Shown one piece after another: positions 5,152 to 25,858 of a DNA stretch of 25,858 nucleotides. Source of the DNA: a virus; the IMG/VR virus record IMGVR_UViG_3300037493_002896, positions 1 through 25,858 of that record. One strand, 5' to 3'. Position numbers and translations under genes: made by a program. The notes below the pieces were generated by a model. That model was not told where the DNA came from. It searched no databases and saw only the letters and a program-made list of their open reading frames with translations. Positions within the stretch are counted from its first letter, which is position 1; every line of letters starts with the position of its first letter.

Positions 5152-5880
5152 TTATTTATCCAAATAATCGGATAATCTTTTCATTAAGTCAAGTGATTTG
5201 TTTCCAGATTCCCCAACATGACGATCAACGGTAATTTTTTTTTCTTCTTCTAAGTTCTCATCATATTTGTGTCTATCGTCTCTATTTAAGAATAGATAAG
5301 CTCCTGGTGTAGATGGAGAAGATACAAGGTCAAAACAAATTAACTCAAAATCTTCTTGTACTTCATTTTGTTCCCCCACTTTTTTAAGTGATCCAACACC
5401 ACGAGAAGATATTCCTAATGTTACACCTTGTCTTAAGTAGTTTGCCGCCAAATCTCCTTTAGTGGAACATACACCACTTTGATGGAATCCAGGACTTGTT
5501 AATAACTTCAACTTACCCAATAGAACAGGACCTTCCCAAAACACTTCAGTAATGATGTGTGAAACACGATCAAGATCAATAAGTGATGACTCAGGGTGAT
5601 TTAACTCTGAAAGGGAAGTTCCCTTCTCAATCATTTTCTTATAGTTCTCAGCTTCTCGTTCAAGAATCTTTTTAGGGTATACTCTACCATTTCTATTTGG
5701 TGTGTCGTATTTCTGTAATACGGCATAAAACTCAAATGGTTTTGAGTGGTCTAAAAAATTCTTAGATTCTTTAAGTATTTCTGAGTTATATTTATCTGTA
5801 GGGTTGATGTAACCGGCATCGTCCTCAACAAGAATTCCGCGTCCCGTTTCATTTGGTCCTAATATTCTATTTTCGTTCAT
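5152..5880 (-). CDS. gp21: Prohead core protease, T4 gp21 family
   Basis: This 242-aa serine protease digests the scaffold and trims the capsid protein before DNA packaging. The family pattern is visible: SFNH-type His in SELNHPESS (His95), the active serine in LGISSRGVGS (Ser158/159) and an Asp in CFDLVSSPSTPGA (Asp184). NRNGRVYPKKIL (62-73) is also typical of T4-like prohead proteases. Gp21 enzymes cut after (I/L)xE, a site present in the capsid protein at residue 60. It has its own TATTTAT motif and is followed by the 71-aa gene and a terminator. Confidence 0.93.
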   Translation of the reverse strand: MNENRILGPNETGRGILVEDDAGYINPTDKYNSEILKESKNFLDHSKPFEFYAVLQKYDTPNRNGRVYPKKILEREAENYKKMIEKGTSLSELNHPESSLIDLDRVSHIITEVFWEGPVLLGKLKLLTSPGFHQSGVCSTKGDLAANYLRQGVTLGISSRGVGSLKKVGEQNEVQEDFELICFDLVSSPSTPGAYLFLNRDDRHKYDENLEEEKKITVDRHVGESGNKSLDLMKRLSDYLDK

Positions 5881-5903: not shown

Positions 5904-6374
5904 TTAAACTTTTTCTATTTTTACCTTATTTGGTTTCACATTTCCATTTTTTGTTAAAGAAAACTTAAAGTTTTCGTTCTTAATAAGAACATCATCATAT
6001 ATTCCTTTGATAATAGTTTTTAATTTTCTCTTTAGTTTTGTATCTTTAAAGTCTAATTCATCTATTAGGAACAAATTAATTTCAAGGTTCATAAACGATT
6101 TTTTCTTTGGTTGCAGTCCGCTTGTTCTTAGATCCATATCAACAATAAATTTATCATCAAATAATGTTTTGTCTATATGTTCATATACTGAATGTTTAAT
6201 AGATCTACTCATATTCAGTACAATTCTTGACCAAGATTCTGGATCAATTTTTGGTTCCACCCAAGTTTGTAAGTTAAGGTATAGGGATTTAAAATCTTTG
6301 GAGTTTACTGTTCCGTATATCACCTTTGAGGATCTATAACCAATTAATTTGGAAGTTTTTCCTTTTTTCATCAA
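5904..6374 (-). CDS. Unknown protein in the gp67/gp68 region
   Basis: This 156-aa basic, mixed alpha/beta protein starts MMKKGKTSK and has no signal peptide or membrane segment. No family was recognised. It lies between the portal and protease genes, where T4 keeps the small prohead core genes 67 and 68, but the sequence does not resemble those acidic proteins. Features include an aromatic-rich centre (YLNLQTWVEPK, about 31-41), SRSIKHSVYEHID (about 56-68) and a Lys-rich C-terminus. The start overlaps in context with a second in-frame Met. A head-assembly role is inferred only from position. Confidence 0.75.
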   Translation of the reverse strand: MMKKGKTSKLIGYRSSKVIYGTVNSKDFKSLYLNLQTWVEPKIDPESWSRIVLNMSRSIKHSVYEHIDKTLFDDKFIVDMDLRTSGLQPKKKSFMNLEINLFLIDELDFKDTKLKRKLKTIIKGIYDDVLIKNENFKFSLTKNGNVKPNKVKIEKV

Positions 6375-6413
6375 TTTTTTTCATGTTATCACGTTTATTT
6401 TTAAAATAATAGG

Positions 6414-6421
6414 TATATTTG
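6414..6421 (+). promoter_or_regulatory. Host-type -7 element before the bS21 gene
   Basis: TATATTTG matches the Bacteroidota -7 consensus TAnnTTTG exactly. A clear TTG at the -33 position is missing. It lies about 40 nt upstream of the bS21 ATG and faces the right way. Confidence 0.45.
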
Positions 6422-18412: not shown

Positions 18413-20458
18413 ATGATAGAAAACATGGATAGTGAAGACAAAAACAAAAAGTCATCAGATAAAGGAACACCAGTATTAGATAACTTCAGTAGAGATCTTA
18501 ATAAACTAGCAGAAGAAGGTAAATTAGATCCTGTAGTTGGTAGAGAACCTGAAATTATGAGGATTGCTCAAATCCTATCAAGAAGAAAGAAAAATAACCC
18601 AATTATTGTTGGAGAACCTGGTTGTGGTAAAACTGCAATTGTAGAAGGTTTGGCAATGAAAATATATGAAGGTGATTGTCCTAAAAATTTGATGGATAAA
18701 CGTATCGTATCTTTGGATATGAACTCAATTGTTGCAGGAACAAAGTATCGTGGTCAGTTTGAGGAACGAATGAAAGTTATTATTGAGGAACTTCAGAACA
18801 ACCCCAATATTGTGGTTTTTATTGATGAGATCCATACGATTGTTGGTGCAGGTAGTTCATCAGGATCATTAGATGCTTCCAACATCTTTAAACCAGCACT
18901 TGCCCGAGGGGAAATACAATGCGTCGGAGCAACAACATTAGATGAATATCGTAAGAATTTTGAGAAAGATGGGGCGTTAGAAAGACGTTTCCAAAAGGTT
19001 ATTGTTGATCCATCAACAAAAGAAGAAACTTTAATCATCCTACAAAATAGTAAGGCAAAATATGAAGCACACCATAAAGTATCGTACACAGATGAGATTT
19101 TGGGATTATGTGTTGAACTTGCGGATCGTTATATCACAGATCGTGAATTTCCCGATAAAGCGTTTGACATCTTAGATGAGGTTGGTGCCAGATCTCAAGT
19201 GGATATAAAATTACCTGAAGTAATTGAGAAGTTGAAACAACAGGCATCTGATATCAAACAAGAAAAAATTGATGTTATTAAAAGTCAGAAGTTTGAGATG
19301 GCCGCTGAGTTGAGAGATAAGGAACGAAAAATCATCACAAAACTTGCCGAAGAGAAAAAGAAATTTGACGAAGAACTTACAATTAAAAAGAAGGAAATAT
19401 CCCCAGAATTAGTATATGAGGTTGTTTCCAATATGACTAAAATACCTGTAAGTAAAATCACAATTGATGAAACAAAATCATTAGTTAATCTTGAGGATAC
19501 CCTTAATGATTTGGTTATTGGTCAAGAAGAGGCGGTTGCAAAAATATCAAAAGCAATCAGAAGAAATAGAGTTGGAATTAAGGATCCAAATAAACCAATC
19601 GGTTCATTTATATTCTTGGGATCAACAGGTGTGGGTAAAACATTCTTGGCTAAGAAACTAGCAAAAGAGATCTTTGGTAATGAAGATAATATGATCCGTG
19701 TGGATATGTCCGAATACCAAGAGAAACATACCATCTCCCGTTTAATTGGATCACCTCCAGGATACGTTGGACACGAAGAGGGAGGACAACTTACCGAACA
19801 AGTTAAAAACAAACCATATTCGGTAATTTTGTTTGATGAGATTGAGAAAGCAAACAAAGACATATTTTCAACATTATTACAGATGTTGGACGATGGTCAC
19901 CTTACGGATAGTTTAGGTAGAAAGATTAATTTCAAAAATTGTTTAATTATTATGACTTCAAACATAGGGGTTAGAAAATTACAAGATTTTGGTGGTGGAA
20001 TGGGATTCAAGAAGAGTGATTATGTTGAGGAAGAACATAAACGAGATATTCTTAAATCTGAGTTAAGTAAATTTTTCGCCCCTGAATTCCTTAACAGAAT
20101 TGACGATGTTATTATCTTTAATTCACTTAAGAAAGATCATATTGATAAGATTGTTAAACTTGAGATTGACATTTTGTTAAATAGATTAACAAAAATGAAA
20201 TATAACTTTATTGCCGATTATTCGGTTATTGAGCTGATTTCAAAAGTTGGGTTTGATGAGATGTTTGGTGCCCGTCCTCTAAAACGAGCAATCCAAGATA
20301 AAATTGAGGATCTAATATCTGAAGGTATTTTAATTGGGGATGTTAAGGAAAATACTGAATATACTCTCATGGTTGAAAACGATTCGGTAAAGATTGTTGG
20401 ACCATCAACACCAAAAGAAAAACCAAAAAGAACTAAAAAGAAAAAGGAGGTTGAATAA
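18413..20458 (+). CDS. ClpC/ClpA-type AAA+ unfoldase lacking the N-domain
   Basis: This 681-aa double-AAA+ ATPase unfolds proteins. AAA-1 has Walker A GEPGCGKT (67-74), Walker B VVFIDEIH (134-141) and an arginine finger in ALERRF. A UVR-like helix pair (about 286-310, [12 protein letters not shown]) marks the ClpC type. AAA-2 has Walker A GSTGVGKT (403-410), Walker [11 protein letters not shown] (471-480) and sensor 2 GARPLKRAI. The loop used by ClpA/ClpC to dock on ClpP is present as MGF (530-532). Host ClpC/ClpA carry ~140 extra N-terminal residues for adaptor binding; here AAA-1 begins almost at once, after a short basic-acidic tail. The C-terminus is Lys-rich. An ATG at 18425 is an alternative start. 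It probably works with host ClpP on altered substrates. Confidence 0.93.
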
Positions 20459-20780: not shown

Positions 20781-21566
20781 TTAATGTTTTGTATAACCAA
20801 GTTCTTCAATCATTAATTTACCAACTTTAATTCCATTATAGACATCATCCACAACAACATATTCGTTTGGTGTATGGTATCTATAGTAACCAATTGATAT
20901 GTTGAAACACGAGATCCCATACATAGTGTGAATTGGATATATATCAGTATATGGGTGCTTGTGATATTTCGTATCTGCCGGGAAATGTTCTGTAATTAAT
21001 CTACCACCAACTTTGAAGAAATCACTATCTCTTTTAAACATATTAACACTCATTAGATATTCTGAGATCATATTGTTCTCTGGAGCATCAAACTGAATTG
21101 CATATCCAATATTTTTAAAGAATTCCGGATCTGAATTAAATGATCCCTTACAACCTGTTTCTTCGGATACAAAGAATGCCGCCTTCAAGTTTGGTAATTC
21201 TTTTAATAACTCCAAACAACCAAAAACACCACATTTATCATCACCACCAATTCCCGTTGGGTTTCCGTTATCATTATATGCCTTTAAGGATAGTTTAATA
21301 TTTCCTTGAGCATCAGGTAGCATTTCTTCAACAACGTTGATTGTGTCGATATTATGAACCGTATCAGTATGTGCAACAACACAAGGGAAGAATTCAACAT
21401 TCACATCAGTTTGTTTTGTCGCATAGATATTGTAATGTTTATCCACATAATAGGTAATACTATTTTGGTCTAACCAATCACAGATGTATTGGATCATTAA
21501 ATCCTCTTGATAAGTTTTTGTCGGAACCGACAATACATCTTTTAATAATTCATAATTTCTTTCCAT
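20781..21566 (-). CDS. Zinc aminopeptidase-like protein, M20/M42 (PepT-like) fold
   Basis: This 261-aa co-catalytic metallopeptidase has the full metal set: VAHTDTVH (His66, catalytic Asp68), GIGGDDKCG (bridging Asp109), SEETGCKGS (Glu135 catalytic, Glu136 ligand), QFDAP (Asp160) and YHTPNE (His231). The order and spacing fit M20/M28/M42 peptidases such as tripeptidase PepT. At 261 aa it is shorter than PepT (about 400 aa), and the lid or dimerisation domain looks reduced. No signal peptide is present, so it should act in the cytoplasm, trimming peptides, perhaps those released by Clp proteases. The adjacent -7-like TATATTTG at 21577-21584 in gene direction may be its promoter. Confidence 0.85.
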   Translation of the reverse strand: MERNYELLKDVLSVPTKTYQEDLMIQYICDWLDQNSITYYVDKHYNIYATKQTDVNVEFFPCVVAHTDTVHNIDTINVVEEMLPDAQGNIKLSLKAYNDNGNPTGIGGDDKCGVFGCLELLKELPNLKAAFFVSEETGCKGSFNSDPEFFKNIGYAIQFDAPENNMISEYLMSVNMFKRDSDFFKVGGRLITEHFPADTKYHKHPYTDIYPIHTMYGISCFNISIGYYRYHTPNEYVVVDDVYNGIKVGKLMIEELGYTKH

Positions 21567-21962: not shown

Positions 21963-23666
21963 TTATTTCCGTAATAAAGGTCTGTTCCATTTAATTATCT
22001 CATTCCAATCTGTATATACTCTGTATCCCTCTAAATTATAGACCTCTTTCAACCATACCCTCAGTATTTCCTGTATTTGTAAATCATTAAAACTAAAAAT
22101 GGATTCAAGAAGTGCCCAAATTCTGTCATAATTTATAAAAATTGTAATTATAGGACTTTTTATATCATTATAATAATTTATATAATATATTAACGGCAAT
22201 CCCTTTTTATCAACATAGTATGTTTTAGTACCCTTAACTACTTCAGTTAAATCACCAAATTCCTTGTTTAACCACTTTAATGCGGTTTTAAATTTATGAT
22301 CAACCGATTCGGTAAAGATTTTTTTATTCTCAAATAACTCATATTGGGTCTCAAAACGTTTAAACTCATCATAACTCATAGATCGTTTCTCAGCTGCTTT
22401 ATCACCCCCCTTAACAATAAGAATAAGATTATTTGTCTTCTTATCAATATACTCAATTCTAAAATTCAAGTCAGGGTTAAGTTTACTTTTAATCCATTTA
22501 TCAAAACCATACTCACTAGATATATTTGATTTAATTTCTGAATATTCGTAAATATCTTTAAACTCATTACCTTCAACAATTTTATCATAAACCCTATCAA
22601 TATAATATTTGGCATCACCATTAAAATCCACAAAATCAAAATCATCACAACTTGTATTCCAATACATTTCATCATACCACCCGTGAGAGTTATTATCAAA
22701 TTTTTTAATAATTGTCATTAATAATTCCTCCAACGTTTGACTTTTATTCCCCACAACATTAAATAACTTTATTAAAGTATTAACGGTGGTTTTATATCTA
22801 CGTAATGGATATACTTCAATTATCCCAACAGTAAAAAATTTATTACCAAACTCATCAAATAATTCCTTATGTATTTTACTCATAATACACGCACTCTGAA
22901 TTGATGACCACGCATTAGTGATCTCATCAGCGGCATCCCTAAAGTTATCGGAAAATAAACTCATACTATCTTCAACAGTTAACTCAGAAGGGTCTTTTGT
23001 TAACAACGAAACGATTTCATCAACTTTTTCCCTATTTTCATCATTCAGATAATCACCATAGATATGACCCTCATCCCATTCAGTTGAAGTTTCATACCGT
23101 TCCTGATCATCACGACCATCATTATCCAAATGGTTAATTATATCATAAATGGAATCTTGATCCATTTCTTCAAATAATTTCAAATATTCCTCATAATCAG
23201 TAAAACCAATAGTGATTTTACTTAACCCAGGAGATTTTTCGTTAAAAACAATATCATCCAATAGTGAATCATAACTACCTAAATGTCTCCAACCAGGGTC
23301 ATAACCATTTTTTATCTTAACCAATAATTCATATACTTTACTACCAAAAACCTTCTCACCAATAAGACCCTTAATAGTTGGGAATTCTTCATAGATATCC
23401 GTCGGATCAGTGAAAGTAACATTACTACTAATGTTTCTGAATTCAGTTTTACCAGCATCATTATACATAGAATAAACTTCATCAACACTACTATCAATAA
23501 TGAAATATAAATCACCATTACGGTATTTATCATTCCAATTATCCTTATAATCCCACCCACCAAAATACTCAGCAGCCTTATGATCAAAAACTTCAATAAA
23601 TATTACTTTATCGTCCTCAAAAATAATTTTACTCGTTTCGTATGGGTTGTATTCTCCGTTTTCCAT
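21963..23666 (-). CDS. Large unknown protein carrying the duplicated C-terminal domain
   Basis: This 567-aa acidic protein is rich in Asp, Tyr, Phe and Asn. Residues 1-110 hold a strand-rich region (IIFEDDKVIFIEVFDHKAAE, then FGGWDYKDNWND). The middle is helical with many DD/EE pairs. Residues ~455-567 repeat the 112-aa protein downstream (ALKWLNKEFGDLTEVVKGTK). No catalytic motif or known family was recognised. Just before the C-terminal domain, IFTESVDHKF parallels the start IITENSRDRL of the small copy, so the large gene probably arose by fusion, or the small one by duplication. It has a TATTTAT motif and is divergent from the tmRNA gene. Confidence 0.8.
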   Translation of the reverse strand: MENGEYNPYETSKIIFEDDKVIFIEVFDHKAAEYFGGWDYKDNWNDKYRNGDLYFIIDSSVDEVYSMYNDAGKTEFRNISSNVTFTDPTDIYEEFPTIKGLIGEKVFGSKVYELLVKIKNGYDPGWRHLGSYDSLLDDIVFNEKSPGLSKITIGFTDYEEYLKLFEEMDQDSIYDIINHLDNDGRDDQERYETSTEWDEGHIYGDYLNDENREKVDEIVSLLTKDPSELTVEDSMSLFSDNFRDAADEITNAWSSIQSACIMSKIHKELFDEFGNKFFTVGIIEVYPLRRYKTTVNTLIKLFNVVGNKSQTLEELLMTIIKKFDNNSHGWYDEMYWNTSCDDFDFVDFNGDAKYYIDRVYDKIVEGNEFKDIYEYSEIKSNISSEYGFDKWIKSKLNPDLNFRIEYIDKKTNNLILIVKGGDKAAEKRSMSYDEFKRFETQYELFENKKIFTESVDHKFKTALKWLNKEFGDLTEVVKGTKTYYVDKKGLPLIYYINYYNDIKSPIITIFINYDRIWALLESIFSFNDLQIQEILRVWLKEVYNLEGYRVYTDWNEIIKWNRPLLRK

Positions 23667-23692: not shown

Positions 23693-23722
23693 TTGGAATA
23701 TTGAGTTTTTGTATTATCTTTG
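23693..23722 (+). promoter_or_regulatory. Host-type promoter of the tmRNA gene
   Basis: TTG (23693-23695), exactly 19 nt, then TATCTTTG (23715-23722): a perfect match to the Bacteroidota housekeeping promoter TTG-N19-TAnnTTTG. Transcription would begin near 23729, leaving a leader of about 30 nt to be trimmed from the mature tmRNA. Confidence 0.85.
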
Positions 23723-23760
23723 TATTTATAGAAACGAAAGTTCTTTGATTTATGACATAC

Positions 23761-24157
23761 GGGCCAATATTGGAATTGACGGGCATTGGTTGAATAAAAG
23801 AAGCATGCCGAGACTGAATTAATCTCGTTAAAATCTGATTCACAAAAACAATCGGCGACGTATTATCGAAAATGGAAGTTATTGGATTAGTCCGTACTTC
23901 TGAAGTTACTGTAGCTTAATAAGCAAACGGAAACGCAAGCCGGTTCACATACGCTTAGGAACAGAAGTGATAAAGGGTGTAGTATCTACCCAAAAAGAAA
24001 CAAAACGGGTATAGTTCCCCGTAAGAACTGTCACCGTTTATTGATCGGTGTGAAAAATCAAATATTTTGGGGTGTTAGAAAATACCAACCTAAGCATGTA
24101 GTTGTCTTTTAAACAAGATGAGCCGGACGAGGGAGTCGGAGCCCTCTTGGTCCACCA
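23761..24157 (+). ncRNA. ssrA: Transfer-messenger RNA (tmRNA)
   Basis: The 397-nt RNA rescues stalled ribosomes by acting first as tRNA-Ala-like and then as mRNA. The 5' GGGCCAA pairs with TTGGTCC just before ACCA (7 bp with one G-U). The D-loop segment TTGGAATTGACGGG, the GCATGCCGAG block and the 3' CTAAGCATGTAG and CCGGACGAGGG blocks match bacterial tmRNA. Pseudoknot 1 can be drawn: CGAGA (23809) with TCTCG (23823), and TGAAT (23815) with ATTCA (23838). The tag frame probably resumes at GGC (23854), 11 nt after PK1 and after AACAATC, and ends at TAA TAA (23917). The tag starts GDVLSKMEVI and ends RTSEVTVA, 21 codons, instead of ~9 ending ALAA. The T-loop is abnormal (AGTCGGAG). Phage tmRNAs are known. 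Confidence 0.93.
23854..23922 (+). other. tmRNA tag reading frame (21 codons, double stop)
   Basis: Codons 23854-23916 read GDVLSKMEVI, then GLV, then RTSEVTVA, followed by TAA TAA. Resume at GGC is chosen from the spacing to pseudoknot 1 and because Bacteroidota tags begin with Gly. A second possible resume point is CGT at 23893, right after TAGTC (as in E. coli tmRNA), which would give the 8-residue tag RTSEVTVA. Either way the C-terminus is TVA, not LAA. Confidence 0.75.
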
Positions 24158-24163
24158 ATTAAC

Positions 24164-24193
24164 CCCACCACATTTAAGTGGTGGGTTTTTTTT
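24164..24193 (+). terminator. Terminator of the tmRNA gene
   Basis: CCCACCAC (24164-24171) and GTGGTGGG (24178-24185) form a perfect 8-bp stem around ATTTAA, followed by eight T's. Confidence 0.92.
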
Positions 24194-24246: not shown

Positions 24247-24402
24247 ATGAGACCTAAATTAAAAGACGAAGACAAAAGAGTTAAAATATCAATAACCCTT
24301 AACAAAATAATTAATAATAGATTGGAAAAAGACATTGTTAATAAATCTAAACTAATTGAAAAATTATTAACCGAATATTATGGAGACAAAAATTTGTATT
24401 AG
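24247..24402 (+). CDS. Ribbon-helix-helix DNA-binding protein (51 aa)
   Basis: The 51-aa frame starts MRPKLKDEDK and reads RVKISITLNKIINNRLEKDI, then VNKSKLIEKLLTEYYG, then DKNLY. This is the ribbon-helix-helix layout: a basic N-terminal arm, a beta strand with alternating residues (KISITL), a first helix, an N-K-S turn and a second helix. Such proteins bind DNA as dimers and usually repress their own promoter. Its end overlaps the HNH start by 23 nt in another frame, so the two are translated from one message. It is likely a repressor or partner that controls the endonuclease. Small size leaves some doubt, but the pattern is good. Confidence 0.75.
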   Translation: MRPKLKDEDKRVKISITLNKIINNRLEKDIVNKSKLIEKLLTEYYGDKNLY

Positions 24403-24982
24403 GTGCGAACTAATTAAACAATATGATGAGTTTAATAAAGATAAAAACCTTAAAAGTGGTATATCAAATATTTGTAAGGTGTGTAAAAAAAAATTAAACT
24501 ATACTTATAGAATCTCAAATCCAAAAAAATATAAATCACAACAAAAAAAATATAGAGATTCAAATAAAGATAAAGAAAAATTAAGAATCAAAAATTGGGT
24601 TAACGAAAATAAGGATCGTAGAACAAAATACACAATAAAGTACGACAAAGAGAGAAAAAAAATTGACCCAAAATATAAACTTTTACGAAATCTTAGAACG
24701 AGAATTTATGTTTTTTTAAAAAAAAATAAAATAACTAAATCTGAAAGGACAATTTCATTGGTTGGGTGTGATTTATCTGAATTAAAATTTTATATGGAAA
24801 ATAAATTTACAAACGGAATGTCGTGGGATAATTATGGGAGTAATGGTTGGCATGTGGACCATATAATCCCATTATCTTCCGCAAAGACAGAAGAAGAACT
24901 TTATAAACTTTGTCATTTTACCAATTTACAACCTTTATGGGAAAAAGATAATCTTGCAAAAAGTAATAAAATTATACTTTAG
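24380..24982 (+). CDS. HNH homing endonuclease with N-terminal zinc ribbon
   Basis: This 200-aa protein begins with a CxxC...CxxC zinc-binding module (CIRC at about 6-9, CKVC at about 32-35), then a long basic helical stretch (about 40-110). The C-terminal HNH nuclease is NGMSWDNYG, then GWHVDHIIPLSSA, then TNLQPLWEKDNLAKSNK. It is paralogous to the HNH enzyme at 698-1384 over the basic and nuclease parts, but that copy has a helix-turn-helix instead of the zinc ribbon. It lies directly after the tmRNA gene and overlaps a ribbon-helix-helix gene. The nearby tmRNA locus may be its homing site. Confidence 0.9.
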   Translation: METKICIRCELIKQYDEFNKDKNLKSGISNICKVCKKKLNYTYRISNPKKYKSQQKKYRDSNKDKEKLRIKNWVNENKDRRTKYTIKYDKERKKIDPKYKLLRNLRTRIYVFLKKNKITKSERTISLVGCDLSELKFYMENKFTNGMSWDNYGSNGWHVDHIIPLSSAKTEEELYKLCHFTNLQPLWEKDNLAKSNKIIL

Positions 24983-25107: not shown

Positions 25108-25211
25108 TAATTAATTTTTTTAACTTAATAAGTTTTACCTAAAAAATAAAAACCTGAGATTATAGTTTTTGTTGAGAATCTTTTGAAGGATTATTGTTTC
25201 CCTTCGTATCC

Positions 25212-25228
25212 ACTTCCTTTTGAGAAGT
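25212..25228 (-). other. Hairpin with TCAAAAG loop, copy 2
   Basis: A perfect 5-bp stem (ACTTC with GAAGT) with the same 7-nt loop TCAAAAG as copy 1, about 300 nt downstream in the same RNA. Confidence 0.7.
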
Positions 25229-25518
25229 ATTCCTCAGTGACGGTCTTTTAGGTGTACCACTCCTTGAGATAATAGTTACTCTCTTATTACTCAACTCTCT
25301 TCGAGGATGCCTCCCCAACTTTTCCTTGCGGGAATAGAGGTTTTTAGTAAGAATACAGTCAGACTTGCGATCTTTCTGTGCAATGAACGGCTCATTACTA
25401 TGTAGTCACCTTTCACTATTACCTGACGGACACTTTTGCTTTATAGTTCTTAGTTTTACTTAATTTCTGTAAAGTTTCTGTGTCGTGGATTGATCAAAGC
25501 AGTGGTCCGTCTTTCAGA

Positions 25519-25541
25519 TTCGTTGTCTTTTGAACAACGAA
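25519..25541 (-). other. Hairpin with TCAAAAG loop, copy 1
   Basis: A perfect 8-bp stem (TTCGTTGT with ACAACGAA) and 7-nt loop TCAAAAG, within the structured RNA. An outer stem GCAGT..GGT / ACC-ACTGC (25553-25499) encloses it. Confidence 0.75.
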
Positions 25542-25858
25542 ATACCAAACTGCTTCGTGAAATGTCCCCATTTCGATATTTTAAGATTACTTCGAGATAA
25601 GTTCCTTGGTAGGAATTCATCAAGGATAATTTCAGCACCACCTGTTTGTTATCATACCTTTCGGTTTTAAGTACCCTCTGATACTGGAACACGCAATAAT
25701 ATAATTGGATAACCATATTTTTTGCAATATCCCTACGGGTTATTCCTATTGATGTTCCCATCGCAACAAGATGACCCACATCACCTTATCATTTAACCAT
25801 TTTCCCTACATCGTTGACCTCGGTACTAAAGATTAAACGGTATCCCGCTTGTGTACTC

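Follow-up and report, generated by a model that had tools for sequence, protein, structure and literature searches.

Does the viral DNA in the window (the whole stretch analysed here, a fragment of 25.9 kb) encode a genuine tmRNA and, if so, what becomes of the proteins that receive its long tag, which ends in VTVA instead of the usual ALAA? An earlier note, made from the letters of the window, had proposed a phage tmRNA with a 21-codon tag frame closed by a double stop and had suggested that tagged proteins are either spared or marked for another protease. We address these proposals in turn, from the RNA gene and its tag to the neighboring genes and the proteases that might read the tag.

A covariance-model scan of the window (cmscan) matched the Rfam tmRNA family RF00023 at positions 23761-24157 on the plus strand with 72 bits (gathering score 47, E = 1.9e-26), and model positions 1-374 were covered, i.e. 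the full length. The gene (ssrA) is of the one-piece type with an encoded CCA, and its acceptor stem (GGGCCAA/TTGGTCC) includes G3:U70, the alanine identity pair of the tRNA-like acceptor. A tmRNA above the Rfam cut-off was found in 39 of 50 ClpC-bearing records, with relatives scoring up to 118 bits. The acceptor stem is fully paired and carries G3:U70 in 31 of 31 tmRNAs, among which it occurs in seven sequence versions with compensated changes at other pairs, and the relatives' alignment has compensatory changes at 23 of 39 predicted pairs. A plausible PK1 (CGAGA/TCTCG and TGAAT/ATTCA) was recognized by eye in the window. With a scan score over the cut-off, an intact acceptor stem and stems that covary, the proposal of a genuine phage tmRNA is borne out, and we are highly confident, from the anatomy and conservation of the gene and from the known activity of its RNA family, that the window RNA would act as a functional trans-translation template. 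ARAGORN missed the tmRNA at 23761-24157 when run on the window and mis-tagged or missed several tmRNAs of relatives, which would account for such genes escaping routine annotation. The T-loop of the window tmRNA (T-arm at about 24125-24146) is AGTCGGAG, 8 nt long, where TTCGANT (UUCGANU) is usual; the variant, also seen in the related lineages L103 and L105, weighs somewhat against the model proposed below.

The tag frame, GDVLSKMEVIGLVRTSEVTVA followed by TAA TAA, occupies the 69 bases at 23854-23922 on the plus strand (63 nt of tag and two stop codons) and translates into 21 residues, or 22 with the charged alanine. In E. coli the main determinant of the frame is A86, four bases 5' of the resume codon (PMC2481249). 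Position -4 relative to the GGC resume codon corresponds to A86, and each of the 71 distinct upstream/tag sequences carries an A there. The alternative frames hold stops (frame +1 in 53 of 53 unique tags and frame +2 in 49 of 53) and no ALAA end occurs in these alternative frames. The proposed 21-codon frame with its double stop is thus correct, and the tag is long and non-ALAA as described. The earlier note had said that an ALAA-ending tag in another frame, or a degenerate tmRNA in relatives, would count against it; we found neither, and the relatives keep the tag family, the acceptor stems and the covariation. A chance frame or a degenerate gene was likewise considered and discarded, given that frame, acceptor stem, covariation and amino-acid constraint are all retained in relatives.

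How far the tag itself is conserved was evident from a DNA pattern built from the tag alone, which returned at least 80 loci. All of the loci listed belong to the same tag family; in 79 the frame closes after 21-22 codons, and in one it runs out of the stored stretch. The same tag was reached by three independent routes, i.e. through ClpC-selected loci, the tag-only pattern and SmpB-selected loci. We obtained 47 distinct peptides of 21-22 residues from well over 100 viral contigs, and these conform, or nearly so, to the consensus G-[ND]-V-[LI]-x-K-[ML]-x-x-[VIL]-G-L-[VIL]-R-x-x-x-x-V-x-A, with G1, G11, R14 and A21 invariant in 53 unique 21-codon tags. The end is mostly V-x-V-A, with rare members in VAA or VLA, and none of the 47 distinct peptides ends in ALAA. 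The idea that related phages share the TVA end therefore holds for the C-terminal alanine, which is invariant, and for VA, which closes 42 of the 47 peptides, and fails for the remainder, which end in AA (two; AVAA and TVAA), TA (two) or LA (one). Because all relatives keep the frame and the tag, the observation lies far above chance. One variant of the tag has the GNVLNKMETLGLVRGSEVTVA form.

At the amino-acid level, we estimated pN/pS from 31 unique 21-codon tags chosen without the tag pattern. The tag frame gave a ratio of 0.44, the two other frames 0.76 and 1.63. None of 200 column shuffles gave an in-frame value as low, and variability is highest at third codon positions. The tag is under amino-acid-level constraint across all 21-22 codons. 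In cellular genomes (84,980 species, one genome each) the tag pattern found a single match, in Tolypothrix. A cellular origin of the tag was rejected, this sole match being a chance frame of 25 residues with an unrelated continuation. No record of the phage collection matched the tag peptide, no real match to the tmRNA DNA was found among cultured phages, and a strict DNA pattern for the 5' end had no match.

The sequences flanking the gene are consistent with a transcribed unit. A TAnnTTTG box (TATCTTTG), a Bacteroidota-type -7 promoter element, lies at 23715-23722 (plus strand) and is present in 50 of 53 distinct upstream regions of relatives; after base shuffling of such regions it would be expected in about 11%. 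Such boxes are typical of Bacteroidota promoters. In the short leader, the element GTTCTTTGA at 23740-23748 (plus strand), about 14 nt 5' of the tmRNA start, conforms to GTT[CAT]TTT[GA]A, which is found in 50 of 54 distinct upstream regions versus 2% in shuffles; we call it boxA-like after its resemblance to the antitermination boxA that it may represent. It is missing in four upstream regions, including those of the SmpB-bearing lineages G045 and G049. A predicted intrinsic terminator, an 8-bp stem followed by a T run, lies 3' of the tmRNA at 24164-24193 (plus strand). Promoter box, boxA-like element and terminator together make it likely that the tmRNA is transcribed and that the host is a member of the Bacteroidota, which the virus group as a whole probably infects. 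Judged by capsid and terminase, the cultured phages that come closest are Flavobacterium phages (immuto) and Microcystis phage Mel-JY01, all of them distant, and the immuto record gave no tmRNA match.

Upstream of the tmRNA, at 18413-20458 on the plus strand, the window encodes a ClpC-type AAA+ unfoldase with D1 and D2 AAA modules, both Walker A motifs, both pore loops, a UVR-like middle region and the ClpP-docking loop MGF. Its alignment to S. aureus ClpC spans residues 144-794 of the latter, so that the adaptor-binding N-domain is absent. The docking loop ([VMIL]GF) is kept in 54 of 54 ClpC relatives. A scan for phage ClpC gave 80 loci; in all 60 tabulated ClpC-selected loci that hold a tmRNA, it lies 3' of ClpC on the same strand, 1.7-6.0 kb away, and the 12 tabulated ClpC loci without a tmRNA all end within 3 kb of ClpC. 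Among tag-selected records ClpC is present in 50 of 50, some copies being truncated at contig ends or interrupted. In G073 (24937-28661) and G091 (41216-44917) an insert of about 1.65 kb, probably a mobile intron or intein, interrupts the gene around residues 62-72, in the Walker A region. Homologues of this ClpC also occur in the huge phages LR745206, LR756502 and LR756501, in which no good tmRNA match was found. The main caveat is that these phages form one family, so the co-occurrence of ClpC and tag is by itself no proof of interaction and could reflect common descent.

Two further genes lie between ClpC and the tmRNA, both on the minus strand. An M20-family metallopeptidase (20781-21566; Pfam PF01546) is found between ClpC and the tmRNA in 68 of 68 loci, and a conserved protein without an assigned function (21963-23666, in the interval from the M20 gene to the tmRNA) in 59 of 68. 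The AlphaFold model of the latter has a mean pLDDT of 84.5, and a fold search with it gave no PDB match and one weak viral match. An adaptor role for this protein was considered and dropped; the model is confident, but no fold match was convincing.

Most of the related records are fragments, as is the window, and a ClpP gene is present in 3 of 38 of them and an SmpB gene in 2 of 38 and in 6 of 50, so most of these phages would need the ClpP and SmpB of the host. A scan for phage SmpB gave 51 loci, of which 34 have a nearby tmRNA of this tag family; M20 is present in all 34, and so is ClpC wherever the sequence extends far enough. This tmRNA is absent from the remaining 17 SmpB loci, in most of which the SmpB proteins are 46-63% identical. 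In a second SmpB group, with mostly 48-63% identity and made up of fragment records (L311-L320, L322, L323, L325, L327 and L329), no tmRNA over the cut-off was detected. Beyond the tmRNA on its 3' side, the window encodes a 200-aa protein (24380-24982, plus strand) that by eye looks like an HNH-type homing endonuclease and has no Pfam match. It occurs in 1 of 80 related loci and therefore looks like a recent insertion.

The tmRNA also has a constant RNA neighbor. A GOLLD RNA (RF02032, 320.9 bits by cmscan) lies tail-to-tail with it at 25151-25557 on the minus strand, and the two are convergent in all 27 records that were compared, at distances of 0.1-2.3 kb (median 513 bp), with SmpB between them in G045 and G049. 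In L314, GOLLD (5461-5877) adjoins the SmpB gene (6001-6414), and no tmRNA match was found in that record. The occurrence of GOLLD close to tRNA genes has been described (PMC6582537), and we found no report in the literature of an association with tmRNA. GOLLD may be part of the same ribosome-related locus, and its constant tail-to-tail position is a fresh clue to its unexplained role.

What, then, would this locus do? In the model we propose, the tmRNA would be charged with alanine and, aided by SmpB (that of the host, or the phage's own in some relatives), would enter stalled ribosomes and append A-GDVLSKMEVIGLVRTSEVTVA to the stalled protein. The 21-22-residue tag would act as a degron, with a specificity shifted away from that of the usual ALAA tag. 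The N-domain-less ClpC encoded just upstream would read the tag, unfold the tagged proteins and pass them to docked ClpP, usually that of the host, and the neighboring M20 peptidase would perhaps trim the resulting peptides to amino acids.

The components of this model differ in how firmly they can be held. That the tag is a degron is probable, judging by sequence features and by analogy, because the invariant C-terminal alanine and the V, A or L before it resemble LVA and because an unfoldase and a peptidase form the core of the locus; LVA is one of the ssrA variants that serve as degradation tags (PMC9382460). That the phage ClpC is the main reader of the tag has about an even chance, and the model as a whole, in which a phage trans-translation tag acts as a degron read by phage ClpC on ClpP, appears slightly better placed than that. 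A stronger version can be put forward only tentatively, namely a private orthogonal pathway in which the phage's own tmRNA (and sometimes SmpB) writes the degron, its own ClpC reads it, and ClpP and M20 recycle stalled products during infection without host tag readers. Of the two fates suggested by the earlier note, sparing of tagged proteins is disfavored, since the tag end is not degenerate, its C-terminal alanine is invariant and its VA resembles the working LVA variant. The other fate, in which a different protease takes over, agrees better with the universal linkage to a ClpC-type unfoldase with a ClpP-docking loop, the identity of the reader being the part that we infer.

Alternatively, the tmRNA might work as proposed and its tag be an ordinary degron for host ClpXP, ClpCP, Lon or FtsH, providing extra rescue during heavy late translation while ClpC has its role elsewhere. 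The resemblance of the VA, VAA and VLA ends to ssrA variants such as LVA (PMC9382460) would suit host proteases, most records lack ClpP, and the tags of other phage tmRNAs are diverse, ranging from ANPEFAMAA to AKLNITNNELQVA. Nevertheless, we regard this alternative, the main rival, as unlikely, because it leaves unexplained both the constraint on all 21-22 codons, which extends far upstream of the C-terminus, and the universal linkage to ClpC and M20. More doubtful still is a tag that is not a degron at all and either accompanies ribosome rescue with stable tagged proteins or recruits or localizes them. Such a role would be in keeping with the complete lack of ALAA ends among the 47 peptides (a lack shared by other phage tags, such as ...AAALV) and with the long, conserved N-terminal part, to which a partner might bind, but an invariant C-terminal alanine preceded by a nearly invariant position is the signature of a C-degron, and the locus is centered on an unfoldase with a ClpP loop and on a peptidase. 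Finally, it is very improbable that the constraint is mostly on the RNA, with the resume region pairing with the frame end and the peptide of little weight. In favor of this reading, RNAalifold joins the initial codons (columns 102-107) to the final ones (columns 162-167), and 26 of the 31 unique 21-codon tags use GTA for V20. Compensatory changes, however, are absent from the five pairs concerned, which indicates conservation mainly of the peptide, as do the in-frame pN/pS below every shuffle and the variable third positions.

Several elements of the model that we favor, a phage tag read by phage ClpC, have precedents. Phage tmRNAs were reported in 402 of 18,146 phage genomes (PMC9004378), and both tmRNA and SmpB occur in huge phages (PMC7162821). 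Long tags and non-ALAA ends are likewise known from phages (...AAALV in Bread, ...LQVA in phage G). What appears to be new is a strongly conserved, phage-specific tag in a large uncultured family with a fixed ClpC-peptidase-tmRNA(-SmpB)-GOLLD locus; we found no paper reporting conserved phage tag content or a proposed tag reader. A tag that stays constant beside ClpC offers a concrete tag/unfoldase pair. Further unusual tags occur in other phages. ARAGORN reported APTVYKLNNNNYSLQAA in L326 (1012-1366), and by eye we noted a putative long frame ending in EMAVAA in LR756504.1 (280507-280863) and a putative frame ending in KPAAV in LR756508.1 (92434-92880).

Compared with known systems, the phage tmRNA shares with bacterial tmRNA/SmpB (RF00023) the one-piece form, the G3:U70 acceptor, a frame set by A at -4, the terminal stop and, in some relatives, an adjoining SmpB gene, but its tag has 21-22 residues, ends in VTVA, VAVA or AVVA and not in an ALAA-type sequence, and is encoded beside the phage's own ClpC. 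The phage ClpC resembles ClpC/ClpCP of S. aureus and B. subtilis in its two AAA modules, UVR-like middle region, pore loops and ClpP loop but is phage-encoded and lacks the N-domain. The tmRNA of the cluster C mycobacteriophage Bread (Bxz1 group) is also phage-borne, with a long, odd-ended tag (ATDTDATVTDAEIEAFFAEEAAALV, from ARAGORN), but that tag is unrelated and the gene sits in a tRNA cluster. The tag of the phage-borne tmRNA of Bacillus phage G, AKLNITNNELQVA, likewise ends in VA but is shorter and unrelated in sequence. A further parallel is the extended tag of Mycoplasma/Mesoplasma, which according to Gur and Sauer (2008) and Ge and Karzai (2009), as cited in PMC9382460 and PMC3985003, is read by Lon and so sets an example of a lengthened tag that another protease recognizes; Mycoplasma tags lack ALAA (PMC3985003), an end that is thus common but not defining. 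Like the phage tag, the Mycoplasma/Mesoplasma tag is long and has a non-ALAA end, and it is held to have switched protease, as the phage tag may have done, but the two sequences are unrelated and the candidate reader here would, by analogy, be the phage ClpC. With such a tag/ClpC pair, viruses would have their own equivalent of the tag switch in Mycoplasma, and the pair could provide an orthogonal degron for use in bacteria.
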